Of a DNA stretch of 51,470 bases, positions 2,141 through 14,879 are shown piece after piece. Every line of letters begins with the position of its first letter. Positions within the stretch are counted from its first letter, which is position 1. The notes under the pieces are model-generated. The model saw only the letters and a program-made list of their open reading frames with translations. It was not told where the DNA came from and did no database searches. The DNA comes from Ruminococcus sp. (GTDB taxonomy: Bacteria > Bacillota > Clostridia > Oscillospirales > Ruminococcaceae), in assembly GCA_017534595.1 (NCBI GenBank), contig JAFXVY010000100.1, positions 1-51,470 on the forward strand, in the 5' to 3' direction. The position numbers were made by a program, and so were the translations under genes.

Positions 2141-2682
2141 CAGATAAAGTCATCCTGACAGGTACACCGCAGGAGAAGATAACGACCTGCCTCAAAACCG
2201 CCGGCTGGTATAAGGGCCGAAAAGCCGATCTGACAGAAGCGCGAGCCTTCTACGCCTCGGGCGGCATCACGCTTCCGGCGGGAGCCGAGCGGTTCCTTGA
2301 GGAATACCACGGCCTCTCGAGCGGGTGGTATCTCAACGTCCCCCTCGAGCAGCAGAAGGGCAGAGCCCCTGATGTGGAATTCAATATCATCCCTGACGGC
2401 AGCTGGGCGACCAAAAGCTACTTTGAAGAATGCTATGCGGCGGAGTACGCAGAGAATCTCCAAAAGATCTCCGACTTCGCCGGAGAGCAGCTGGTCTGGG
2501 TGGCCTCGATCGGGTATTACTACTCCGAAAGCGTCTATATGGGCAGCACGGATAAGCTTTTTGTCCTGCGTGACGACGGAAAGATCCGCACCTATTACTC
2601 TGTCACGGATATGCTGCTCTGGGACTTTGAGCATCACCCCCAATGGGAATACGTTACCGTGCGCTCACACACAAAAGAATAA
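2137..2682 (+). CDS. SUKH-3-like domain protein
   Basis: A 181-aa protein overlapping the methyltransferase stop by four bases (ATGA), so translation is probably coupled. It follows the SUKH-3 pattern: an N-terminal GWYKGRKADL block (residues 23-32), a FLEEYHGL block (about 52-59) and a central beta-rich region. It ends with VASIGYYYSESVYMG followed by LFVLRDDGKIRTYYS. SUKH proteins are best known as immunity proteins against contact-dependent or polymorphic toxins. No toxin gene is nearby, so its role in a metal operon is unexplained. Assignment is by pattern only. Confidence 0.6.
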   Translation: MTDKVILTGTPQEKITTCLKTAGWYKGRKADLTEARAFYASGGITLPAGAERFLEEYHGLSSGWYLNVPLEQQKGRAPDVEFNIIPDGSWATKSYFEECYAAEYAENLQKISDFAGEQLVWVASIGYYYSESVYMGSTDKLFVLRDDGKIRTYYSVTDMLLWDFEHHPQWEYVTVRSHTKE

Positions 2683-2752
2683 AGAGCGGCGAGGGGAAAG
2701 AAAAACAATGCGTCAGAACAAAAATAATATATATACACGGAGGAAAACCACT

Positions 2753-2974
2753 ATGAAAAAGACATTCAAGCTTGATGAGCTCGACTGCGCCAACTGCGGC
2801 GCCAAGATGGAGGCCGCTGTGAAGAAGATCGACGGCGTTACCGGCTGCACGGTCAGCTTCATGACACAGAAGATCACCATCGAAGCCGACGACGACTGCT
2901 TCGACGATGTCGTAAAGCAGGCAGTAAAGGTCTGCCGCAAGATCGAGCCCGACTGCGAGATAATCGTTAAGTGA
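2753..2974 (+). CDS. Stand-alone heavy-metal-associated (HMA) domain protein
   Basis: A 73-aa single-domain metallochaperone. The metal-binding loop is LDCANCGAKME (C12-x2-C15), followed by the KKIDGVTGCTVSFMTQKITIE ferredoxin-like pattern, and it is Asp/Cys-rich at the C-terminus. The ATG at 2753 is preceded by CGGAGGA (2738-2744). The downstream ATPase (gap of one base) lacks the usual N-terminal HMA domain, so this protein probably supplies that function in trans, delivering Zn or Cd to the pump. A Cu role is possible for the fold but less likely here. Confidence 0.85.
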   Translation: MKKTFKLDELDCANCGAKMEAAVKKIDGVTGCTVSFMTQKITIEADDDCFDDVVKQAVKVCRKIEPDCEIIVK

Positions 2975-2975
2975 T

Positions 2976-4820
2976 ATGAAACGCAAGCAGAAAAAAGTTC
3001 TCGTCAGGATAATCGTCAGCGCGGTGCTGCTGGTGTTCGCAAAGATATTCTGCCCGGATGAATGGTGGGCGGCCTTTGTGTATGCCGTACCCTATCTCGT
3101 GATCGGGTATGACGTCATTTTCAAGGCGGTGCGCAATATCGCCAACGGTCAGGTCTTCGATGAGAACTTCCTTATGGTCATAGCCACGGTCGGCGCCTTT
3201 GCCACCGGGGAATATACCGAGGCCGCAGCGGTAATGCTGTTCTATCAGACCGGAGAGCTGTTCCAGAGCGTTGCGGTCGGCAGGTCGAGGAAGTCTATCT
3301 CGGAGCTTATGGATATCCGCCCCGACTACGCCAACATAGAGCGTGACGGCAAGCTCGAGCAGGTTGACCCCGACGAGATCGCCGTGGGCGACGAGATAAT
3401 CATCAAGCCCGGCGAGAAGATCCCCCTCGACGGCATAGTCCTCGAGGGCAGGAGCGCCGCAGACACCTCCGCACTGACGGGCGAGAGCCTGCCGCGTGAG
3501 ATCGACGCCGGCGACGATGTGGTAAGCGGGTGCATAAACCTCACCGGAGTGCTCAGAGTGAGAGTCACCAAGCCGTTCGGCGAATCCACCGTCTCAAAGA
3601 TACTCGAGCTCACCGAGAACGCCGCCTCGCAGAAGGCAAAGACAGAGAATTTCATAACCCGATTTGCAAGGTACTATACCCCCGCCGTGGTGTTCGCGGC
3701 GCTTGCGCTGGCAGTGATACCCCCGCTGATAGCCGGCGGCGGCTGGATGACCTGGATACACAGAGCACTGATATTCCTTGTTATCTCCTGCCCCTGCGCA
3801 CTGGTCATTTCGGTGCCCCTCAGCTTCTTCGGAGGCATCGGCGGCGCGGGCAGACAGGGTATACTCGTCAAGGGCGGCAGCTGCTTCGAGTCGCTTGCAA
3901 AGACCGATACCGTTGTCTTCGACAAGACGGGTACGCTCACCAAGGGCGTGTTCAATGTCACGGCCGTACACCCGGAGAGCATCAGCGAGCAGCGGCTCAC
4001 CGAGCTGGCAGCCTACGCCGAGAGCAGCAGTACTCACCCGATAGCTGCAGCGCTGCGTGACGCCTGCAATACCCAGATCGACCGCAGCCGCATAACCTCC
4101 TGCGAGGAGATCGCGGGCAGGGGAGTCAGAGCGGTCATCGACGGCGAGGAGGTCTGCGCCGGCAACGGCAAGCTAATGGACGATATCGGCGTGAGCTGGC
4201 ACCCCTGCCACCATGTCGGGACGACAGTTCATATCGCGGTCAACGGCGTGTACGCCGGGCATCTCGTGATCTCGGATGAGGTCAAGGAGACCTCCGCCGC
4301 TGCAATAGCGGAGCTCGGCAGGATAGGGGTAAAGAAAACGGTAATGCTCACCGGCGACGCTGACGCCGTGGGTAAGGATGCCGCTAAGAAGCTGGGCATC
4401 GGCGAGGTCTATACCGAGCTGCTGCCGGCGGATAAGGTGGAGAAGGTCGAAGGGCTGCTCAATGCGGAGCAGGGCGGAGTGCTGGCATTCGTCGGCGACG
4501 GCATAAATGACGCGCCGGTGCTTGCAAGAGCGGATATAGGCATAGCCATGGGAGCCATGGGCTCGGATGCCGCAATAGAGGCAGCGGATGTCGTGCTCAT
4601 GGACGACGACCCCGCAAAGCTGGCAAAGGCTATACTCACCGCCAGAAGAACTCTTAGGATAGTATATGAGAACATCGTGTTCGCGCTCGGGGTAAAGGCT
4701 CTTGTGCTGATACTCGGCGCACTGGGGTTTGCCTCTATGTGGGCGGCGGTATTTGCCGATGTCGGAGTATCCGTTATAGCGATACTAAACGCCATGAGAG
4801 CGCTGAAGGTAAAGAACTGA
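2976..4820 (+). CDS. P1B-2 type Zn/Cd/Pb-exporting ATPase
   Basis: A 614-aa membrane pump that exports divalent soft metals. Visible motifs are TGES (actuator domain), the transmembrane metal site CPC (Cys272-Pro-Cys274), the phosphorylation site DKTGT (Asp316), the HP motif in SSTHPIAAAL, and GDGINDAP (507-514). The last helix carries DVGVSVIAILNAMRAL, the Asp-Gly signature of the Zn/Cd/Pb subclass (ZntA/CadA). No N-terminal HMA domain is present; it is encoded by the preceding gene. It is the last gene of the operon, followed by a terminator. Confidence 0.93.
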   Translation: MKRKQKKVLVRIIVSAVLLVFAKIFCPDEWWAAFVYAVPYLVIGYDVIFKAVRNIANGQVFDENFLMVIATVGAFATGEYTEAAAVMLFYQTGELFQSVAVGRSRKSISELMDIRPDYANIERDGKLEQVDPDEIAVGDEIIIKPGEKIPLDGIVLEGRSAADTSALTGESLPREIDAGDDVVSGCINLTGVLRVRVTKPFGESTVSKILELTENAASQKAKTENFITRFARYYTPAVVFAALALAVIPPLIAGGGWMTWIHRALIFLVISCPCALVISVPLSFFGGIGGAGRQGILVKGGSCFESLAKTDTVVFDKTGTLTKGVFNVTAVHPESISEQRLTELAAYAESSSTHPIAAALRDACNTQIDRSRITSCEEIAGRGVRAVIDGEEVCAGNGKLMDDIGVSWHPCHHVGTTVHIAVNGVYAGHLVISDEVKETSAAAIAELGRIGVKKTVMLTGDADAVGKDAAKKLGIGEVYTELLPADKVEKVEGLLNAEQGGVLAFVGDGINDAPVLARADIGIAMGAMGSDAAIEAADVVLMDDDPAKLAKAILTARRTLRIVYENIVFALGVKALVLILGALGFASMWAAVFADVGVSVIAILNAMRALKVKN

Positions 4821-6310: not shown

Positions 6311-6725
6311 TTACTTGTCGAACGAGGGATTGAAGGCGTAGAAGTTGCGGGAATCGAGCATATCCTGAACTATGCGCAGCCCCTCTCCGAAACGCTGGAA
6401 ATGCACGATCTCTCTTTCGCGCAGGAACTTGATCGGGTCGCGGACATCCGGGTCGTCGATGAGGCGAAGCAGATTGTCATAGGTCGTGCGGGCTTTCTGC
6501 TCGGCGGCAAGGTCTTCGTGAAGGTCGGTTATCGGGTCGCCCTTCGACTGGAAGGTCATCGCCGAGAAGGGTACTCCCGACGCCGCCTGCGGATAGATGC
6601 CGGTGGTGTGGTCAACGAAGTAGGCGTCAAAGCCGGCCTCCTTGATCTCCTTTATCGACAGATCCCGGGTCAGCTGGAAGAGTATCGCCGAGATCATCTC
6701 CATGTGCGCGAGTTCCTCTGTACCT
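6311..6725 (-). CDS. cotJC: cotJC 3' segment (C-terminal 136 aa of CotJC)
   Basis: This is the C-terminal part of the spore-coat CotJC/manganese-catalase family protein, beginning at GTEELAHMEMI and ending at PSFDK. On its own it lacks a proper start: the reading frame upstream runs into element DNA (TTG at 6739, giving a foreign MFNEA prefix). Joined in frame at AGGT to the 5' segment at 14187-14372 it restores a 198-aa protein. Likely metal ligands carried here, in joined numbering, are Glu65, His68, Glu136 and His169, by comparison with the known Lactobacillus plantarum Mn-catalase ligands. There are no internal stops or frameshifts. Confidence 0.92.
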
Positions 6726-8000
6726 GCTTCGTTGAACAAGTGACGCCCTGAAAGGCTCGCTCACCCCGCAGAGTTCTATGCTCACCTCTCCGTTCCCGAG
6801 GGCGGTGATCCTGCTGACGGCAGCGGAGAGCACTTGGTCGGAAAGCGCCGCTCTGCGAACTGTATCCTCCGGCAGAGCGAGCCTGTGCTTCGAGAGCAGG
6901 CGCAGGGTTTTGTCAGCCGCCGCAGCAGGAGCACCGGTGCTTTCAATCAGCGTGCGCACCTCCGATTTCAGCGCCTCATCGGGCAGGGATGCGTTCCCGC
7001 AGGCAGCGGAGCATCTCCAGGAGCGGTAAACGCCGGCTTTCGTCTTTTTGCTTCGGGAGACATACCCCGCGCCGCACCGCCCGCAGACAGTCTTCCCGCT
7101 GAGAGGGTACCGCGCCGAATAGCTGCTCCTGTCGGCGGGGGTACACCTGCCCTGACGCAGACGGGCAGCAGCGTCGAACAGCTCCCGGGGTATCAGCGCC
7201 CCGTGATGTCCGCGGATAACTGTCAGCTCCGACTCCTCCCGGCAGCGGACGCGGCGGTGGGACAGGTGGTCGGGAGTGCAGGTCTTGCCCTGGACGAGAT
7301 CTCCGGTGTATTTCTCGTTGCCAAGCAGACGCATTACTGCGGCGGGGCTCCATTTGTCTGCATATCTCGCCGGGACGCCCTCGGCGTTGAGCCGTGCGGC
7401 TATGCTCCTGCCGCCGAGCCCGCCGTAAACATAGAGCCGGAAGATGTACCCAACCACCTCCGCCTCCTCCGGTTCGGGGATGAGTACGCCGTCTTTCAGG
7501 GTGTAGCCGTAGGGGCTGCGCCCGAAGACCACACCCTGCTCCATGCGCCGCCGCTGCCCCCAGCGCACCCGCTCGGAGGTGCGGCGGCTCTCCTCCTGCG
7601 CTATGGACGACAGCAGCGTGAGCCGAAGCTCGCCCTCCGGGGCAAGGGTGTCTATACCGTCGTTGAGAAAGGTCACGCCGATGCCGAGCTCCCGCAGCCG
7701 CCGAACGCAGACGAGTGCGTCCACCGTGTTGCGGGCGAAGCGGCTGACCTCCTTGGTGAGTATGCGGTCAAAGCGCCCTGCTTCGGCGTCGGCGAGCATT
7801 CTCATGAACGCCGGGCGGCGCAGCGCCTGAGTCCCGCTGACCCCCTCGTCCGAGTAGACGGCGCAGAGCTCCCAGCCCTCATGGCTGCTTATCATCCGGC
7901 GGAAATACTCTGTCTGATTTTCCAGTGAGCCCGCCTGACCCTGCCCCTCTGTCGATACCCGGCAGTATGCGCACACTCTCAAGATACTCTGCAAAGACAC
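6627..8000 (-). CDS. Large serine recombinase (SpoIVCA-like)
   Basis: A 457-aa site-specific recombinase. The resolvase domain contains AYCRVSTEGQ with catalytic Ser16 and the SRFARNTVDAL segment. A recombinase domain follows (about 158-240, with PYGYTLKDG and LLGNEKYTGDLVQGK), then a zinc ribbon (CGRCG at 306-310 with a C-x3-C partner at 330-334) and a coiled C-terminal part. The GTG start at 8000 follows GGAGGAGGGAGAAC. Residues after Arg426 are read from cotJC DNA in a foreign frame; in the excised circle the frame would end 13 codons later (439 aa) inside a terminator. It is the obvious enzyme for excision and integration of the element. Confidence 0.92.
   Translation of the reverse strand: MSLQSILRVCAYCRVSTEGQGQAGSLENQTEYFRRMISSHEGWELCAVYSDEGVSGTQALRRPAFMRMLADAEAGRFDRILTKEVSRFARNTVDALVCVRRLRELGIGVTFLNDGIDTLAPEGELRLTLLSSIAQEESRRTSERVRWGQRRRMEQGVVFGRSPYGYTLKDGVLIPEPEEAEVVGYIFRLYVYGGLGGRSIAARLNAEGVPARYADKWSPAAVMRLLGNEKYTGDLVQGKTCTPDHLSHRRVRCREESELTVIRGHHGALIPRELFDAAARLRQGRCTPADRSSYSARYPLSGKTVCGRCGAGYVSRSKKTKAGVYRSWRCSAACGNASLPDEALKSEVRTLIESTGAPAAAADKTLRLLSKHRLALPEDTVRRAALSDQVLSAAVSRITALGNGEVSIELCGVSEPFRASLVQRSRYRGTRAHGDDLGDTLPADPGSVDKGDQGGRL
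6715..6740. other. attR-like junction of the cotJC element
   Basis: The cotJC coding sequence (left on the plus strand) meets element DNA here. The shared core ACCT is at 6722-6725, and the element arm TGCTTCGTTG follows at 6725-6734. The same ACCT occurs at 14187-14190 with the opposite composition of flanks, as expected of attL/attR pairs. Confidence 0.85.
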
Positions 8001-8112
8001 GTTCTCCCTCCTCCTTGCTTATGCTGCCCGAAGCCGTGAGCTCGCCCGCGATCCCGCGCAGTATGCAGGAAACGAGCCCGGGATATTCATTTTCGGGTCT
8101 GCCGTTTTTCAT
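7879..8112 (-). CDS. Small ORF upstream of and overlapping the recombinase
   Basis: A 77-aa ORF of unknown family with an Asn/Glu-rich start and a helical middle (GELTASGSISKEEGERVFAEYL). The ATG at 8112 has a good GGGAGG eight bases upstream, in preference to the GTG at 8121. It overlaps the recombinase gene by 122 bp in another frame, so only the first 38 residues are free of overlap. Its position suggests translational coupling to the recombinase. A role as a directionality or accessory factor is only a guess from context. Confidence 0.45.
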   Translation of the reverse strand: MKNGRPENEYPGLVSCILRGIAGELTASGSISKEEGERVFAEYLESVRILPGIDRGAGSGGLTGKSDRVFPPDDKQP

Positions 8113-8273
8113 GGCTTTCACCTCCCGGTATCAAGGATATGCGCTCCCTGCCTGTCCCGATACATCCCGTAAGAATCCGACATTTCGTCTTATTCCACAA
8201 GATATTGCATAATTCTTTGTGAACCCTGCATACAAACAGTGGATAGCTGAAATAAAGTTTGTAGGATTTAACG

Positions 8274-8303
8274 TTGACAAAACAGGGCTTTAAATGGTAT
8301 ATT
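8274..8303 (+). promoter_or_regulatory. Promoter of livK
   Basis: TTGACA (8274-8279) and TATATT (8298-8303) are spaced by 18 bp. The 260-bp interval between the recombinase operon and livK is the divergent control region. I could not identify a convincing sigma-E or sigma-K promoter for the recombinase side. Confidence 0.6.
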
Positions 8304-8372
8304 GTTTATATCTGAAAGGGGGAAGTATCCGGCTTTCCCGCTTTCCGATGAATACAATAAGGAGTGACAAGT

Positions 8373-9581
8373 ATGAAAATGATCAAGAAAATGCTCGCAT
8401 TTTCGCTGGCAGCCGTAATGGCAGGCTCCTGCCTCGCTTCCTGCGGCAGCAGTGATTCGAGCAGCAAGTCCGACGGAAATAACGGCGGTACCGAGGGCGA
8501 CAGCTCCAAGGTCATCACCATCGGCGGCAGCGGTCCTCTCACCGGCGGTGCTGCGCAGTACGGCATCGGCGTAAAGAACGCTGTTGAGCTGGCTGTCAAG
8601 GACGTTAACGCTTCCGGCGAGCTCGGCGACATCAAGCTCGAGGTAGTATTCGAGGACGATGAGGCTGACCCCGCTGACAAGGCTGTAAACGCCTACAACA
8701 CCCTCAAGGACAAGGGTATGGACATCATGGTAGGTACTGTTACCACCGGTTCCTGCCTCGCAGTTATCGACAAGACCAAGGAGGATAACATCTTCCAGAT
8801 CACACCCTCCGCTTCCGCTCAGGATGTAATCGCTAACCCCAACTGCTTCCAGGTCTGCTTCACCGACCCCAACCAGGGCCGCGCTTCCGCAGACTATATC
8901 GCTGACAACAACGTTGCCAAGAAGGTAGCTATCATCTATGACAGCTCCGACGCTTATTCTTCCGGTATCTACAACACCTTCAAGTCCGAGGCTTCCGCCA
9001 AGGGTCTTGAGGTAGTATCCGAGGGCGCATTCACCAAGGATTCCAAGACCGACTTCTCGGCTCAGATCGCCGATGCCAAGAACAAGGGCGCTGAGCTCGT
9101 GTTCCTGCCCATCTACTACACCGAGGCTTCTCTGATCCTTGCTCAGTGCAAGAGCGCTGACTTTGCTCCCAAGTTCTTCGGCTGCGACGGTCTTGACGGT
9201 ATCCTTTCCGTTGAGGGCTTCGACACCGCACTTGCCGAGGGCGTAATGCTCCTGACCCCGTTCGCTGCCGACGCTGCTGACGAGGCTACCCAGAAGTTCG
9301 TTGCAGACTACAAGGCTGCTTACAGTGACGAGACTCCCAACCAGTTCGCTGCCGATGCTTACGACTGCGTAAAGATCATCGCCAAGCTGATCAAGCAGGA
9401 GGGCATCACCGCTGATATGTCCGCTTCCGATATGTGCGACAAGCTCTGCGCCGCTATCACCAACGGCTTCAGCTTCGACGGCCTTACCGGTACCGGCATG
9501 ACCTGGACCGCTGAGGGTGCTGTTTCCAAGAACCCGAAGGCTGTTGTTATCAAGAACGGTACTTACTCCGCTCTTCAGTAA
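8373..9581 (+). CDS. livK: Branched-chain amino-acid ABC transporter, substrate-binding lipoprotein LivK
   Basis: A 402-aa periplasmic-binding-fold type I protein. The signal peptide ends in the lipobox LASC with Cys24, followed by a Ser/Gly linker and the two-lobed LivJ/LivK domain starting ITIGGSGPLTGGAAQYG. The IIYDSSDAYSSGIYNTFK and FDTALAEGVMLLTPF blocks are typical. It captures Leu, Ile, Val or a related ligand outside the cell. The ATG at 8373 follows AAGGAG. It lies inside the cotJC element; a terminator separates it from livHMGF, allowing extra expression of the binding protein. Confidence 0.93.
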   Translation: MKMIKKMLAFSLAAVMAGSCLASCGSSDSSSKSDGNNGGTEGDSSKVITIGGSGPLTGGAAQYGIGVKNAVELAVKDVNASGELGDIKLEVVFEDDEADPADKAVNAYNTLKDKGMDIMVGTVTTGSCLAVIDKTKEDNIFQITPSASAQDVIANPNCFQVCFTDPNQGRASADYIADNNVAKKVAIIYDSSDAYSSGIYNTFKSEASAKGLEVVSEGAFTKDSKTDFSAQIADAKNKGAELVFLPIYYTEASLILAQCKSADFAPKFFGCDGLDGILSVEGFDTALAEGVMLLTPFAADAADEATQKFVADYKAAYSDETPNQFAADAYDCVKIIAKLIKQEGITADMSASDMCDKLCAAITNGFSFDGLTGTGMTWTAEGAVSKNPKAVVIKNGTYSALQ

Positions 9582-9595
9582 TAACAAATGATGCG

Positions 9596-9632
9596 ACGGG
9601 GCATCTGCGAAAAGCAGGTGCCCCGTTTTTTT
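9596..9632 (+). terminator. Terminator between livK and livH
   Basis: ACGGGGCATCTGC pairs with GCAGGTGCCCCGT around a GAAAA loop and is followed by seven T residues. Confidence 0.85.
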
Positions 9633-9696
9633 GCGGATGTTATCATAAGTGCCAAAAATCAGCATTTGCAGAGGCGTATTTTTTAGGAATAGCTTG

Positions 9697-9725
9697 TTGC
9701 AATCCGGCGGATATTGTGATATAAT
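9697..9725 (+). promoter_or_regulatory. Promoter of livHMGF
   Basis: TTGCAA (9697-9702) and TATAAT (9720-9725) are spaced by 17 bp. Confidence 0.7.
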
Positions 9726-9785
9726 ATACTATGTGCGATTATGGGCGCTGCCCGGATATCAGCCAAGGGAAGGAATGTTTGCTTA

Positions 9786-10667
9786 ATGGCTTTTCTCGAT
9801 TACTTGATCAACGGCATCAGCCTCGGAAGCATATATGCCGTTATTGCGCTGGGCTATACGCTTGTCTACGGTATAGCCAAGATGCTCAACTTCGCTCACG
9901 GCGACGTTATCATGGTCGGCGGATACGTCATCTTCACGATGATGTCGAACGTTGGGCTCAACTCCTATGTCTCTGTGCTCATAGCTATGGCTGCGTGTAC
10001 GGTGCTCGGCATTACGATCGAAAAGATCGCCTACAAGCCGCTGCGTCAGTCCACCAACCTCGCCGTGCTCATCACCGCGATAGGAGTCAGCTATTTCCTG
10101 CAGAATATCGCTCTGATAATATTCGGAGAGAAGCCGGTAACTTTCAAGTCGGTCATCGACCTGCCGAAGATCACCCTCTTCGACGGGCAGATAGTCATCA
10201 AGTCCGAGGCTATCGCTTCGATCATCGTTTCGGTAGTAATTGTCGTGGGGCTCTCGCTTTTCGTCAACAAGACCAAGAGCGGACGTGCGATGCTGGCGGT
10301 CTCCGAGGATAAGGACGCAGCAAGGCTCATGGGTATAAACGTAAACCGCACGATCTCCCTGACGTTCGCCATCGGCTCGGGACTCGCTGCGATCGCGGGC
10401 GCACTGCTCTGCTCGAGCTACCCCGTGCTCTCCAACACCACCGGCGCTATGCCCGGCATCAAGGCCTTCGTTGCGGCGGTATTCGGCGGCATCGGCTCGA
10501 TACCCGGCGCTATGGTGGGAGGTCTGCTGATAGGCGTCATCGAGATACTCGGGCGCGCATATATCTCCCCCCAGCTTGCAGATGCCATAGTTTTCGCGGT
10601 GCTGATCATCGTTCTGATAGTAAGACCTACCGGTATCCTCGGCAAGAAGGTAAACGAGAAGGTCTGA
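9786..10667 (+). CDS. livH: Branched-chain amino-acid ABC transporter permease LivH
   Basis: A 293-aa integral membrane protein with about eight hydrophobic segments. The N-terminus FLDYLINGISLGSIYAVIALGYTLVYGI is characteristic of LivH, as is the EDKDAARLMGINVNRTI coupling loop that contacts the ATPases. The ATG at 9786 is chosen because the family begins a few residues before FLDYLI; upstream in-frame sequence from 9741 is not family-like. A GGAAGG lies somewhat far upstream. It pairs with LivM to form the channel for substrate handed over by LivK. Confidence 0.92.
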   Translation: MAFLDYLINGISLGSIYAVIALGYTLVYGIAKMLNFAHGDVIMVGGYVIFTMMSNVGLNSYVSVLIAMAACTVLGITIEKIAYKPLRQSTNLAVLITAIGVSYFLQNIALIIFGEKPVTFKSVIDLPKITLFDGQIVIKSEAIASIIVSVVIVVGLSLFVNKTKSGRAMLAVSEDKDAARLMGINVNRTISLTFAIGSGLAAIAGALLCSSYPVLSNTTGAMPGIKAFVAAVFGGIGSIPGAMVGGLLIGVIEILGRAYISPQLADAIVFAVLIIVLIVRPTGILGKKVNEKV

Positions 10668-10727
10668 CCCCCGGTCATCACGGCATCCACGAAACTATGC
10701 GACTAATCGCGAAAGGAACGATACGCT

Positions 10728-11822
10728 TTGAAGAAGCTGAAAATAAAACCCTCAACGCGCAGCAGCTTTACCACCTATGCAATAGTGACCGCTGCGTTCA
10801 TAGCGGTGCAGATAATGATCTCGACGGGGAGCGCCAGCAATATGTTCAAGGGCCTGCTCATCCCGTTCTGCGTCTACTCCATAGCTGCCGCTTCGCTTAA
10901 CCTCACCGTCGGCATACTCGGCGAGCTCAGCCTCGGCCAGGCCGGATTTATGTGCATCGGAGCCTACTCCAGCGCGATCTTCTCGGTCTGCACCAAGGAT
11001 ACCATAACCAGCGCGTGGATACGCTTCCCGATAGCTCTGCTCATCGGCGGCATCTTCGCCGCGATATTCGGAATACTCATAGGCATCCCCGTGCTTCGTC
11101 TGCGCGGCGACTACCTTGCGATAGTTACCCTTGCCTTCGGCGAGATCATCAAGAACGTCTTTAATGCCCTCTATGTCGGCTACGACAGCAGCGGACTGCA
11201 TTTCTCCCTCACCAGCCAGGGCGACCTGAACCTCGCCCCCGACGGCAAGATGCTCATAAACGGCGCACTCGGCGTCAAGGGTATGCCCCAGGACTCCACC
11301 TTCGTCATCGGCTTTGTTGTCCTGCTGCTGACGCTCATAATCCTCTACAACTTTATCTACTCCTCCACCGGCAGAGCGGTAATGTCTATCAGAGACAACC
11401 GCATAGCCGCCGAGTCGGTAGGTCTCAACATCACCAAGTACAAGCTCATCACCTTCGGCCTCACCGCGTTTCTTGCGGGCGTTGCGGGCGCGATCTTCTC
11501 GCATAACCTCTCGACGCTGCAGGCCTCGAAGTTCGATTACAACCTCTCGATACTGATACTCGTGTTCGTCGTGCTCGGCGGCATAGGCAGCATCAGGGGC
11601 AGCGTTATCGCAGCGATCGTGCTGACCTACCTGCCCGAGGTGCTCAGAAAGCTCAACAGCGACTTCGGCAAGTACCGTATGCTCATATATTCGGTAGTGC
11701 TGATCGTTATGATGATCTTCACCTCCAACGCCAAGATACGCGGCTTCTTTGCGGCAAGCTTTGCAAAGCTCAAGGGGCTCATAATCAAGGATAAGAATAC
11801 ACCGGCAAAGGAGGCGGAGTGA
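10728..11822 (+). CDS. livM: Branched-chain amino-acid ABC transporter permease LivM
   Basis: A 364-aa integral membrane protein. The LNLTVGILGELSLGQAGFMCIGAY segment and RLRGDYLAIVTLAFGEI are LivM hallmarks, and the SIRDNRIAAESVGLNITKYK loop is the coupling motif. The start is TTG at 10728 with AAGGA 11 bases upstream; no ATG fits better. The C-terminus is a short Lys-rich cytoplasmic tail. It is separated from livG by one base, so the genes are co-transcribed. Confidence 0.92.
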   Translation: MKKLKIKPSTRSSFTTYAIVTAAFIAVQIMISTGSASNMFKGLLIPFCVYSIAAASLNLTVGILGELSLGQAGFMCIGAYSSAIFSVCTKDTITSAWIRFPIALLIGGIFAAIFGILIGIPVLRLRGDYLAIVTLAFGEIIKNVFNALYVGYDSSGLHFSLTSQGDLNLAPDGKMLINGALGVKGMPQDSTFVIGFVVLLLTLIILYNFIYSSTGRAVMSIRDNRIAAESVGLNITKYKLITFGLTAFLAGVAGAIFSHNLSTLQASKFDYNLSILILVFVVLGGIGSIRGSVIAAIVLTYLPEVLRKLNSDFGKYRMLIYSVVLIVMMIFTSNAKIRGFFAASFAKLKGLIIKDKNTPAKEAE

Positions 11823-11823
11823 T

Positions 11824-12582
11824 ATGGCACTGCTCGAAGTCAAAAAGCTCGGCATCTCCTTCGGCGGTCTGCGTGCCGTTGACGATTTCTCGGTATCTAT
11901 CGAGAAGGGGGACCTCTACGGCCTCATAGGCCCCAACGGCGCGGGCAAGACCACGATCTTCAACCTGCTCACCGGCGTCTATAAGCCCACCGACGGCTCC
12001 ATTACCCTCGACGGCGTGAACATCACCGGCAAGAGCACCATCGAGATCAACAAGGCGGGCATCGCCCGTACCTTCCAGAACATCAGACTGTTCTCAAAGC
12101 TCAGCGTACTTGACAACGTCAAGGCCGGGCTCACCAATAAGTACAGATACTCCACCGCGACAGGCATCTTCCGCCTGCCCAAGTATTTCAGGCTCGAGCG
12201 TGAGATGACCGAACGCGCACTTGAACTGCTGCGTCCCTTCGAGCTGGACGGCGACGCCGATGTCATAGCGGCGAACCTGCCCTACGGAAAGCAGAGAAAG
12301 CTCGAGATCGCAAGAGCCCTTGCCACGGATCCCAAGCTGCTGCTCCTCGACGAGCCGGCTGCCGGCATGAACCCCAAGGAGACCGCGGGGCTCATGAACA
12401 CGATCCTTACGGTAAGAGACGATTTCGGAGTCACCGTGCTGCTCATAGAGCACGATATGGCACTGGTGTCGGGCATCTGCGAGAAGCTCTCGGTGCTCAA
12501 CTTCGGTCAGCTGCTCTGCGAGGGCCCCACGGGTCAGGTGCTCAATGACCCCGAGGTCATCAAGGCATATTTAGGCGAGTAA
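11824..12582 (+). CDS. livG: Branched-chain amino-acid ABC transporter ATPase LivG
   Basis: A 252-aa ATPase. Walker A is GPNGAGKT (36-43), the Q-loop region is GIARTFQNIRLF, the signature is replaced by the LivG-type YGKQRKLEIARAL, and Walker B is LLLLDEPAAGMNP with the switch His in LLIEHDM. It drives transport together with LivF on the cytoplasmic side of LivHM. The ATG follows GGAGTGAT, overlapping the livM stop region. Confidence 0.93.
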   Translation: MALLEVKKLGISFGGLRAVDDFSVSIEKGDLYGLIGPNGAGKTTIFNLLTGVYKPTDGSITLDGVNITGKSTIEINKAGIARTFQNIRLFSKLSVLDNVKAGLTNKYRYSTATGIFRLPKYFRLEREMTERALELLRPFELDGDADVIAANLPYGKQRKLEIARALATDPKLLLLDEPAAGMNPKETAGLMNTILTVRDDFGVTVLLIEHDMALVSGICEKLSVLNFGQLLCEGPTGQVLNDPEVIKAYLGE

Positions 12583-12594
12583 GGGGGCGGAGCT

Positions 12595-13305
12595 ATGTCA
12601 ATGCTTGAAGTCAAGGATCTGAGCGTCTATTACGGAGTGATACAGGCGCTCAAGGGCATCTCCTTCTCGGTCAATGAGGGAGAGGTCATAGCGCTCATAG
12701 GCGCTAACGGCGCGGGAAAGACCACAACTTTGCATACCCTTACCGGCATACTGCCCGCCAGAACGGGCTCGATAGTCTTCGAGGGTACGGAGCTCACAAA
12801 GACTCCCGCACATAAGATAGTAAAAATGGGCATCGCTCACGTTCCCGAGGGAAGGCGTATCTTCCAGCAGCTGACGGTGCTCGATAACCTGAAGCTCGGT
12901 GCGTTCACCAGAAACGATAAGGACGGCATCGCCGAGGATATGGAGAAGATCTATAAGCGCTTCCCGAGGCTCGAGGAAAGAAAGACCCAGATCGCGGGTA
13001 CACTCTCGGGCGGTGAGCAGCAGATGCTCGCTATGGGCAGAGCGCTGATGTCCAGACCGAAAATGGTGGTCATGGATGAGCCCTCAATGGGTCTCTCGCC
13101 TATACTCGTCAGCGAGATCTTCGATATCATCGAGTCTATCCGCAAGGACGGCACCACGGTGCTGCTCGTTGAGCAGAACGCCAAGAAGGCGCTTTCCATC
13201 GCGGACAGAGCCTACGTCCTCGAGACCGGCAGGATAACCCTCTCGGGCAAGGCCTCGGATCTTATCAACGACGAGAAGGTAAGAAAGGCCTACCTCGGAG
13301 AGTGA
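12595..13305 (+). CDS. livF: Branched-chain amino-acid ABC transporter ATPase LivF
   Basis: A 236-aa ATPase. Walker A is GANGAGKT (36-43), the LivF-typical HVPEGRRIFQQLTV follows, the signature is LSGGEQQML, and Walker B is KMVVMDEPSMGLSP with LLVEQNA in place of the His switch region. It is the fifth and last transporter gene. Preceded by GGGGGCGGAG, it starts 12 bases after livG. Confidence 0.93.
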   Translation: MSMLEVKDLSVYYGVIQALKGISFSVNEGEVIALIGANGAGKTTTLHTLTGILPARTGSIVFEGTELTKTPAHKIVKMGIAHVPEGRRIFQQLTVLDNLKLGAFTRNDKDGIAEDMEKIYKRFPRLEERKTQIAGTLSGGEQQMLAMGRALMSRPKMVVMDEPSMGLSPILVSEIFDIIESIRKDGTTVLLVEQNAKKALSIADRAYVLETGRITLSGKASDLINDEKVRKAYLGE

Positions 13306-13341
13306 CCGGGAAAACATCATCAATGTAAGGGAGCGATCAGC

Positions 13342-13950
13342 TTGGCACAGATCATAACCATAGCCCGCGGCATGGGAAGCGGAGGCAGAACGATAGGTAA
13401 GATGCTCTCCGAGGAGCTCGGGTATAAATACTACGACAAGGATCTCATCCGCCTCGCAAGCGAGGACAGCGGCATCAACGAAGCCTTCTTCGGCAGAGTC
13501 GATGAGAAGCTCAAGAGCTCGTTCATCAAGCGCGGCGGCGTGTATAAGGGCGGAGTCATAGACCCGTCGAGCAGGGAGTTCACCTCCGACAAGAACCTGT
13601 TCAACTTCCAGGCCAAGATCATCAAGGAGCTTGCCGACAAGGAGCCCGCAGTGATAATCGGGCGCTGCGCCGACTTCATCCTCGCCGACAGAACGGACGT
13701 CATCAGGCTGTTCATCTTCTGCGATAAGGAGACGGCGGTGAAGAACGTCGTGGACGCCTACGGCATCACCGAGAAGGAGGCTGCAAAGCTCGTCGAGAAG
13801 ACCGATAAGGACAGGAGCGACTATTACAGCCACTACACCGGCCGCGACTGGGAGTGCGCAAGGAACTACAACATCTGCCTCGACACCAGCCGCCTCGATT
13901 TCGAGACCTGCGTGAAGATCATCAAGGGATATATCTCACTGATAGGATAA
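13342..13950 (+). CDS. Cytidylate-kinase-like protein
   Basis: A 202-aa P-loop kinase of the cytidylate-kinase-like family (Cytidylate_kin2 type) seen in clostridia. It begins ITIARGMGSGGRTIGKML, the P-loop variant, followed by YYDKDLIRLASEDSGI and the conserved AVIIGRCADFIL block; DRSDYYSHYTGRDW is the lid region. The TTG start at 13342 has AAGGGAG upstream. The true substrate of this family is not established. It lies 36 bp downstream of livF on the same strand, probably in the same transcript, and is the last gene before the element end. Confidence 0.8.
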   Translation: MAQIITIARGMGSGGRTIGKMLSEELGYKYYDKDLIRLASEDSGINEAFFGRVDEKLKSSFIKRGGVYKGGVIDPSSREFTSDKNLFNFQAKIIKELADKEPAVIIGRCADFILADRTDVIRLFIFCDKETAVKNVVDAYGITEKEAAKLVEKTDKDRSDYYSHYTGRDWECARNYNICLDTSRLDFETCVKIIKGYISLIG

Positions 13951-14124
13951 AGGCACCACCGCACAACCACCGGCTAACGCCTTTATACATCATCCGCTTG
14001 CATATTTTCCGTCATATTACCCAAATTCTCCTTGCCTTGCGCTAGCAAGGCGGCGTCGAATTTAGGCAATCTGACGAAAAATCTGACTGCGCGTCTGACG
14101 CACAATGGTTGTGCGGTGTTGCCT
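13951..14124. repeat. MITE-like palindromic element, copy 2 (complete, 174 bp)
   Basis: The left terminal repeat AGGCACCACCGCACAACC (13951-13968) matches the complement of the right one (14107-14124) at 17 of 18 bases. Internal sequence from 13989 is nearly identical to the copy at the window start. It directly follows the stop codon of the kinase-like gene and lies 62 bp inside the attL end of the cotJC element. No ORF of its own. Confidence 0.85.
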
Positions 14125-14166
14125 AAAAAAACTGCTGCCTGCGGCTCATGCTGCGGGCAGCTTTTG
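14125..14166. terminator. Bidirectional terminator at the attL end of the element
   Basis: GCTGCCTGCGG (14134-14144) pairs with CTGCGGGCAGC (14151-14161). On the minus strand it is followed by seven T residues (14131-14125), and on the plus strand by four. In the circular form of the element, the recombinase frame ends at a TGA lying in the loop of this hairpin (14148-14146), making it the natural recombinase terminator. Confidence 0.8.
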
Positions 14167-14174
14167 CGTCTTGG

Positions 14175-14200
14175 GTACAACGAAGCACCTATATCGCTGA
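14175..14200. other. attL-like junction of the cotJC element
   Basis: The element arm CAACGAAGCA (14178-14187) meets cotJC coding DNA at the shared core ACCT (14187-14190). Reading on the cotJ strand, the frame goes from CotJC (SDIG) into non-homologous residues (ASLYPRR) exactly here. Confidence 0.85.
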
Positions 14201-14372
14201 GTATCGCCTGAACCTCCCGGCAGGGAGCGGAGTATCTCTGCGACAGATAGCGCATCGCCGCGCCGAGCTCACCGTCAGGACCGCCGAGCTGCGAAATGAT
14301 GACCTTTGCCAGCGCAGGATTGGTGTTCTTGATCCTTACAGGGTACTGAAGCTTTTTCTCATACTGCCACAT
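14187..14372 (-). CDS. cotJC: cotJC 5' segment (N-terminal 62 aa of CotJC)
   Basis: Begins MWQYEKKLQYPVRIKN, the standard CotJC start, and runs to AILSDIG, where the element interrupts it between the first metal ligand (Glu35) and the next pair (Glu65, His68 of the joined protein). In the integrated state the frame runs on through element DNA and the MITE to a stop at 13983, giving a truncated 129-aa product with a foreign tail. The start ATG overlaps the cotJB stop (TGATG) and follows GGAGGT. Removal of the element restores a normal-length gene. Confidence 0.92.
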
Positions 14373-14644
14373 CAGTCATTACCTCCTTCGTTGGCGCAGA
14401 GCTCCCAGGGGAAGGGCTCCGTGACCCATTCCCACTTGCGCGTCCCTTCGGATGCGCAGGCCGTGAGAGGGCCGTACTTCTTCTGATATTCGGCGAGGAC
14501 GCTTTCGTATTTCTCCTTGTGAGTGCGGTAGAAGGCGAGACCCTCGGTGCAGGTCGGGTGGCTGTCAAGATAGAGCACAGCCTCGTGTACCGTGAAGGCG
14601 CACGCCTGAACTCTTCTGAGGAGCTTCTGCTGTTCACTTGTCAT
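14372..14644 (-). CDS. cotJB: Spore coat protein CotJB
   Basis: A 90-aa protein of the CotJB family, which in Bacillus is a component of the inner spore coat polypeptide set with CotJA and CotJC. It has LLRRVQACAFTVHEAVLYLDSHPTC, the characteristic helix, and ends with KWEWVTEPFPWE. It overlaps cotJA by 11 bases and cotJC by one, so the three are translationally coupled. The C-terminus after PFPWE is a short Glu/Gly/Asn tail carrying the cotJC ribosome binding site. Confidence 0.88.
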   Translation of the reverse strand: MTSEQQKLLRRVQACAFTVHEAVLYLDSHPTCTEGLAFYRTHKEKYESVLAEYQKKYGPLTACASEGTRKWEWVTEPFPWELCANEGGND

Positions 14645-14879
14645 TTCGGGCGGCCTCCTCTCCTATAAACGGCAGATCAAGGCAGGGGAACAGCGTACCG
14701 CGGGAGAGCGCGGCGTCGCTGTCGTAGGTCTTCTGCCAGGTCTGGAACGGGACGTATGCCATAGCAAGGGGCATATCTGCGGGGAACACTGATCTCGGCA
14801 TCGGGCAGGCTGCGGCCTCGGGCATGACATCGTCGTCCGAGAGGAGAGCTCCGAGCAGAGTCTTGTCGGTCTTTTCCAT
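14634..14879 (-). CDS. cotJA: Spore coat protein CotJA
   Basis: An 81-aa protein. The conserved CotJA core is LAMAYVPFQTWQKTYDSDAALSRGTLFPCLDLPF (residues about 38-71). An N-terminal variable Asp/Ala-rich part precedes it. The ATG at 14879 follows CGGAGGTAATT. First gene of the cotJABC operon, which is sigma-E-dependent in Bacillus; I could not confirm a sigma-E promoter upstream here. Confidence 0.88.
   Translation of the reverse strand: MEKTDKTLLGALLSDDDVMPEAAACPMPRSVFPADMPLAMAYVPFQTWQKTYDSDAALSRGTLFPCLDLPFIGEEAARNDK

Follow-up and report, generated by a model that had tools for sequence, protein, structure and literature searches.

In the 51,470-nucleotide stretch of Ruminococcus sp. DNA analyzed here (contig JAFXVY010000100.1 of assembly GCA_017534595.1; hereafter, the window), the coat catalase gene cotJC is cut at codon 62 by an intervening element of 7,465 bp, leaving two halves that are both intact and in frame (Table 1). 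The split is real and recurrent, it is probably programmed, and it is likely that the intervening DNA is a developmentally excised element that works like skin in sigK. An earlier note on this DNA had proposed that a 7.5-kb element splits cotJC with its halves in phase, and the nucleotides AGGT, common to both halves, bear this out. Joined at this core, the halves form 198 codons without an internal stop, followed by TAA, and keep Glu35, Glu65, His68, Glu136, and His169 in position, as had been predicted; we take these five residues to be the Mn ligands of CotJC. The cotJA and cotJB genes stand ahead of the 5' half on the minus strand. A large serine recombinase (LSR), which the earlier note had placed at one junction, was recognized there as an open reading frame (ORF) by its domains, and the end of this ORF crosses the attachment site attR. 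The circle junction predicted to result from excision, CAACGAAGC-AGGT-GCTTCGTTG, is a perfect 9+9-bp inverted repeat around AGGT, and perfect 9-bp arms at one given center are expected by chance at about 4^-9. Over 25 positions per side, the symmetry of this junction is 17/25, a small margin over the best value elsewhere in the element (16/25). The earlier note had allowed for a second full cotJC elsewhere in the genome, but none was found in the assembly (93% complete, 144 contigs), in which a search to an expectation value (E) of 10 returned the two halves alone. SpoIVA is present in this genome (G000) at 661.8 bits.

The layout of the window is shared by G014, a well-separated second species whose SpoIVA differs from that of G000 by about 0.48 changes per site. 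The two layouts agree part by part (3' part of cotJC, LSR, small ORF, liv genes, cmk, 5' part of cotJC), that of G014 being spread over two contigs, with identities to the window of 60-61% for the LSR and 77-90% for the liv genes. The window genome is itself in 144 contigs, and an assembly artefact might be suspected, but the two halves and their matching att arms are on a single contig, G014 repeats the arrangement, and splits are found in the single-contig genomes G119, G205, G127, and G219 as well as in named isolates (among them Lactonifactor longoviformis DSM 17459, Pseudoflavonifractor sp. An44, and Anaeromassilibacillus sp. An250), making an artefact exceedingly improbable. It is also very unlikely that the pieces are separate genes or parts of a split-protein assembly. 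The 5' half does read into an ORF of 129 residues, but the ligand residues are divided between the two halves, the 3' pieces lack a consistently placed start of their own, and there are five cut sites that yield pieces down to about 10 and 33 codons.

Split cotJC genes recur widely among relatives. A cotJC match is present in 78 of 100 relatives, G000 being counted among the 100. Judged by eye from the match table, 38 of the 78 have one piece of at least 184 residues at 59% identity or more, 37 have fragments only, and 3 have a paralogue alone (35-37% identity). Uninterrupted cotJC, which the earlier note had suggested looking for in related genomes, occurs in G009, G002, and others. The DNA of 35 of the 37 fragment genomes (all but G024 and G059) was inspected, along with that of G017 and G043. 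In 27 of these 35, a break has an LSR next to it or nearby, and none was seen in the other eight (G011, G015, G034, G045, G049, G062, G076, and G084), in which the pieces often lie at contig ends. G017 and G043 appear near full length in the match table, yet are interrupted near codon 10 and flanked on one side by an LSR, so that 29 of the 78 cotJC-bearing relatives have an LSR beside or near a break; cuts near codon 10 in the other 36 full-length genomes were judged from the match table alone. Of the 27 fragment genomes in which an LSR was seen, 25 have a SpoIVA match, the exceptions being G038 (78% complete) and G052 (84%), and the matches in G022 and G042 lie below the cut-off only. In a class-wide draw, 99 of 146 genomes have a cotJC match, and fragments are again frequent among the matches listed. 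Contig C1 of G068 (loci L401 and L402) holds a whole cotJC and, 56.7 kb downstream, a displaced 3' fragment covering codons 153-197; no LSR was found in the stretches fetched, and perhaps an element here supplied a new 3' end to cotJC.

The breaks share cores at codons ~10 (site 0), 31 (A), 62-67 (B), 135 (C), and 173 (D), and a second LSR group, B2, is also found at codons 62-67. Several genes are broken more than once. The four cotJC pieces of G094 follow one another in sequence along a single strand of a 1.55-Mb contig. G020 also has four pieces, across two contigs and with two on opposite strands, which suggests an inversion within or around an element. On contig C23 of G020 (L045 and L046), the first and second pieces are those on opposite strands. 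Three pieces are found in G089, G119, G205, and G219 (in G219 the order holds only for a circular contig), and the two pieces of G127 are 157 kb apart. When joined by script, the genes of G000, G094, G020, G089, G073, G060, and G021 are open over 198-199 codons; the joined frames of G094 and G020 continue beyond codon 198, and an extra residue in G021 moves the last ligand by one. Sites A-D are 1-4 codons away from a ligand (P 0.0044), and the DNA in which they lie is rather conserved (P 0.0044), both values taking four hand-placed sites as random draws and excluding site 0; in conservation, site B alone is outdone by 33% of the windows compared. Overlaps at contig ends, of 141 bp in G062 and 110 bp in G011, were considered as joined and split forms side by side and rejected, as the overlaps begin 12-16 nt before the site-C core; neither genome is in the split count.

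Each LSR family goes with its own site. LSRs were labeled by the nearest break (at most 2.5 kb away, at least 380 residues), giving 122 LSRs, of which 111 are distinct; two more remained unlabeled and were dropped. By best match to the queries, family and site agree in 110 of the 111 (A1, 72/72 at B; A2, 11/12 at C; A3, 11/11 at D; Aa and Ab together, 11/11 at A; B2, 5/5 at B), the single A2 exception being a weak match, L251, at site A. As the queries were taken from loci of known site and the limits were widened by hand for overshoot, a tree is the better test of this association. In a FastTree phylogeny (with a long-branch warning) that also took in 40 LSRs with no cotJC seen nearby, the four sites require 4 changes where the minimum possible is 3, and all five labels require 14 changes compared to a mean of 66.1 after shuffling, with none of 200 shuffles as low. 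Outside the set of 111, the LSR piece near site A in G119 and G205 is weakly A1-like, not Aa, and site 0 in G017 and G043 is served by B2-like LSRs. Among the best 80 of 581 LSR relatives in named genomes, 68 loci have a cotJC match, and 59 have the LSR at most 2.5 kb from a site-B break (56, plus 3 that duplicate earlier loci). In L126, two LSRs of the site-B family (401-2011 and 2308-3954) lie in tandem beside one 5' piece of cotJC.

The split genes are maintained as coding sequences. Selection was assessed on 28 split and 25 intact genes taken from the loci fetched, with L076 dropped and G042, which has stops, not included; none of the 28 split rows contains a stop. The third-position share is 0.602 for split genes (81 pairs) and 0.605 for intact genes (131 pairs), and the median ratio of nonsynonymous to synonymous change (dN/dS) is 0.101 (33 pairs) and 0.153 (66 pairs), respectively, the pairs not being independent. 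Between G000 and G014, which both carry the window-type element, dN/dS is 0.085 over 127 codons. Split cotJC genes are under purifying selection, with a constraint equal to that of intact genes. As a control, each of the 72 genomes with a CotJB match has CotJB as a single piece that covers 70 or more of 76 positions (G024 has an extra weak match), although CotJB is shorter than CotJC and short pieces could escape detection; no CotJB match was obtained in G038, G059, and G061, all of which have cotJC fragments.

The motif CATANNNT, presumably the -10 type of mother-cell sigma factors, occurs within 300 nt upstream of 62 of 102 cotJC-linked LSRs and of 10 of 38 other LSRs, whereas six permuted or reversed patterns occur at 26-39 of the same 102. 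Matches to CATANANT peak 200-300 nt upstream of site-B LSRs (17 versus 3.1), and ATA stands exactly 20 nt before CATANANT in 13 of the 44 matches listed, near-copies included. In non-redundant sets, ATA-N17-CATANANT is found at 9/64 site-B LSRs, 2/30 LSRs of sites A, C, and D, and 1/33 others, with 0.1, 0.4, and 0.2 for permuted controls. A spacing of 17 alone peaks, with 11 matches compared to 0-3 for spacings of 8-16 and 18-25. Promoter motifs of the sigma-E type are enriched at cotJC-linked LSRs, most at site B, and not at other LSRs. By eye, the window has a near match only (the promoter candidate of Table 1), and G014 carries ATA-N17-AATATCCT at the corresponding position.

The earlier note had left the choice between a recent insertion and a conserved excision switch during sporulation or oxidative stress. 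The switch is favored, and a recent insertion disfavored, because G014 shares the layout, split genes are constrained, and sigma-E-type motifs are enriched; the notion that sporulation is the trigger is supported, and nothing found points to oxidative stress, at which no test was aimed. Excision and its timing are inferred, as are the part played by the small ORF and, from the missing coiled-coil stretch, the excision bias of the window LSR; events would run as follows. Vegetative cells would have a split, silent cotJC. In the mother cell, the small ORF and the LSR would be turned on from a sigma-E-type promoter, and the LSR would recombine attL with attR, releasing a 7.5-kb circle that carries the liv-cmk genes and leaving a seamless 198-codon cotJC behind cotJA and cotJB. 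As the mother cell dies, the loss of liv would not be inherited. In other Clostridia, a single cotJC holds up to three such elements, with each LSR family at a site of its own. On balance we lean toward the broader proposition that much of Clostridia keeps cotJC as two to four DNA-level exons separated by elements that belong to five or more LSR groups and are each removed in the mother cell, and that the host nutrient-uptake operon in the window element makes excision tolerable only in a dying cell, tying the host to sporulation-specific timing.

Alternatively, cotJC could be a safe attachment site for integrative elements, with excision occurring at random or at transfer, spores mostly lacking CotJC, and intact pieces reflecting recent, reversible insertions. 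LSR elements are known to target conserved genes (PMC10083194), and the catalase may be dispensable. Furthermore, a cotJC fragment is present in 16 of 181 viral loci retrieved by A1, A2, and A3 (two are one contig), and nine have different LSR groups at the two ends of one piece; the exact attP 22-mer is absent from the viral contigs. In named phage records at E 1e-60, the site-C LSR has 3 matches, the site-D LSR 1, and the site-B LSR 138, all below 60% identity, and a CotJC search of phage records gave 12 matches, 8 of them to unannotated faecal contigs. This alternative is unlikely in view of the layout common to G000 and G014 despite their SpoIVA divergence, the equal constraint on split and intact genes, the specificity of sigma-E-type enrichment for cotJC-linked LSRs, and the four-piece genes that remain open.

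Several observations weigh against programmed excision in the mother cell. No match to a strict sigma-E pattern lies upstream of the window LSR, the G014 LSR, or cotJA of the window. Sigma-K-type sites are not enriched (2/103 versus 1.3), sigma-E enrichment is not seen for LSRs of site A or site D taken alone, and sigma-70 sites are enriched at site-A LSRs (2/10 versus 0.1) and also at background LSRs. The family of the small ORF accompanies LSRs not seen beside cotJC as well. Five of the 29 genomes are not clean: the LSR of G022 is 3.4 kb off, those of G003, G055, and G082 are truncated by a contig end, and the split gene of G042 contains stops and is broken in frame, with only a 231-residue remnant of the LSR. 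In L076, a whole extra cotJC (7723-8313) lies between the split halves, with 44/62 and 107/136 residues identical to them; perhaps it is a replacement brought by the element, and some hosts may consequently not depend on excision.

Elements that interrupt genes and are removed in a terminal cell have precedents. The heterocyst nif elements of cyanobacteria are several DNA elements of this kind, differing from the cotJC case in lineage, recombinases, and genes. Another is skin of Bacillus subtilis and Clostridioides difficile, an LSR element that splits the mother-cell sporulation gene sigK and restores it by excision (PMC4191935, PMC10747680). The cotJC element is likewise an LSR element within a mother-cell sporulation gene; in contrast to skin, it interrupts a coat catalase gene instead of one for a sigma factor, a single gene has several sites and LSR families, and the cargo in the window is a liv operon, whereas skin carries phage genes. 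The gin element in gerE of Bacillus cereus ATCC10987 resembles the cotJC element as a non-phage LSR element in a short sporulation gene and needs a small partner, GirX, but is one 28.6-kb element with three LSRs at one gene site (PMC5595907). Other sporulation-gene elements, in the portions available of the papers cited, are yin in yabG of Clostridium botulinum, reported from one strain only, SPbeta in spsM, vfbin in spoVFB, and vrin in spoVR (PMC10747680, PMC4191935); unlike the cotJC case, these are single elements, and none lies in cotJC. A full-text search found no paper on an interrupted cotJC, with subscription journals and preprints outside its reach and an unseen report possible. The kind of element is known; what appears to be new is its target, the large number of sites, the genes in several pieces, and the presence of a liv operon within the element. 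In the sources available, sporulation excision is described gene by gene, with one element per gene, whereas cotJC is one gene with several recombinase groups at five places in many Clostridia, its pieces under full selection. It therefore offers a natural way to test why elements of this sort reside in spore genes, with many matched sets of LSRs, att sites, and partners. Splitting at the DNA level is also a reason that annotation may miss cotJC in gut spore formers, and a host operon inside the element suggests a route by which an element becomes hard to lose.

The last 99 nt of the window LSR (33 codons, stop included; 6627-6725) are cotJC DNA read in another frame across attR, and the same C-terminal overlap is present in G014. 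Excision would consequently alter the C-terminus of the recombinase. The LSRs of the window and of G014 appear to be without most of a coiled-coil stretch present in other site-B LSRs, and their tails past the Zn-ribbon are 124 (read-through included) and 128 residues long; the tail is 117 residues in L060 and 167-197 in 13 of 14 further LSRs. In light of work on serine integrases, the apparent absence of this stretch suggests an enzyme biased to excision. The L060 LSR also appears short of the coiled-coil stretch, yet no liv capture is in evidence there. The small ORF upstream of the LSR is 38% identical between the window and G014. ORFs upstream of LSRs fall into clusters of 57 site-B and 15 background members (the window's included), 8 site-C members, and 4 site-D and 4 background members, and are partners of LSRs in general. 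By analogy to GirX of gin and to the skin of C. difficile, the small ORF may act as a directionality factor.

The main ORFs of the element (LSR, small ORF, liv, and kinase-like genes) include no phage structural genes, livM and livF lying outside the profile scan. The liv genes stand divergently beside cotJA in G009, G002, and G005, with cotJC intact in the first two but interrupted at site A in the third. A close livJ is absent from G003 and G008, and that of G013 is on a different contig. Found inside cotJC, beside cotJA, or on another contig, liv is a clade operon of variable location; the liv-cmk block (window 8364-13950) is seen in all three places within one clade. In the liv tree, G014 groups with G005 and not with G000, with no starred branch, and the spoIVA tree leaves the placement of G000 versus G014 unresolved, so on these trees liv may have stood first either beside cotJA or inside cotJC.

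Table 1. Features of the split cotJC locus and its intervening element, in window coordinates.
Feature	Position	Strand	Remarks
cotJC 3' part (attR)	6311..6725	-	codons 63-198 and TAA, start GTEELAH; core AGGT 6722-6725
Large serine recombinase, 457 residues	6627..8000	-	Resolvase, Recombinase, and Zn-ribbon domains; 3' end enters cotJC
Intervening element	6722..14186	.	7,465 bp, one core copy within
Small ORF, 77 residues from ATG, candidate directionality factor	7879..8112	-	clusters with ORFs upstream of similar LSRs
Sigma-E-like promoter candidate, ATC-N17-CATATCCT	8134..8161	-	by eye; 21 nt before small ORF
livJ-like binding protein (cargo)	8364..9581	+	Pfam Peripla_BP_6
livH-like permease (cargo)	9741..10667	+	Pfam BPD_transp_2
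livM-like permease (cargo)	10728..11822	+	ORF; conserved in relatives; named by operon order
livG-like ABC ATPase (cargo)	11824..12582	+	Pfam ABC_tran and BCA_ABC_TP_C
livF-like ABC ATPase (cargo)	12595..13305	+	ORF; conserved beside cotJ in relatives; named by operon order
Cytidylate-kinase-like gene (cargo)	13342..13950	+	Pfam Cytidylate_kin2, 182 bits
cotJC 5' part (attL)	14187..14372	-	codons 1-62, end ...SDIG; core AGGT 14187-14190
cotJB	14372..14644	-	Pfam CotJB, 91.7 bits
cotJA	14634..14879	-	Pfam CotJA, 68.6 bits

Outside cotJC, SpoIVA is broken at about codon 411 in G044 (L405 and L406) and G061 (L403 and L404), and an LSR related to those of site B adjoins the 3' piece.

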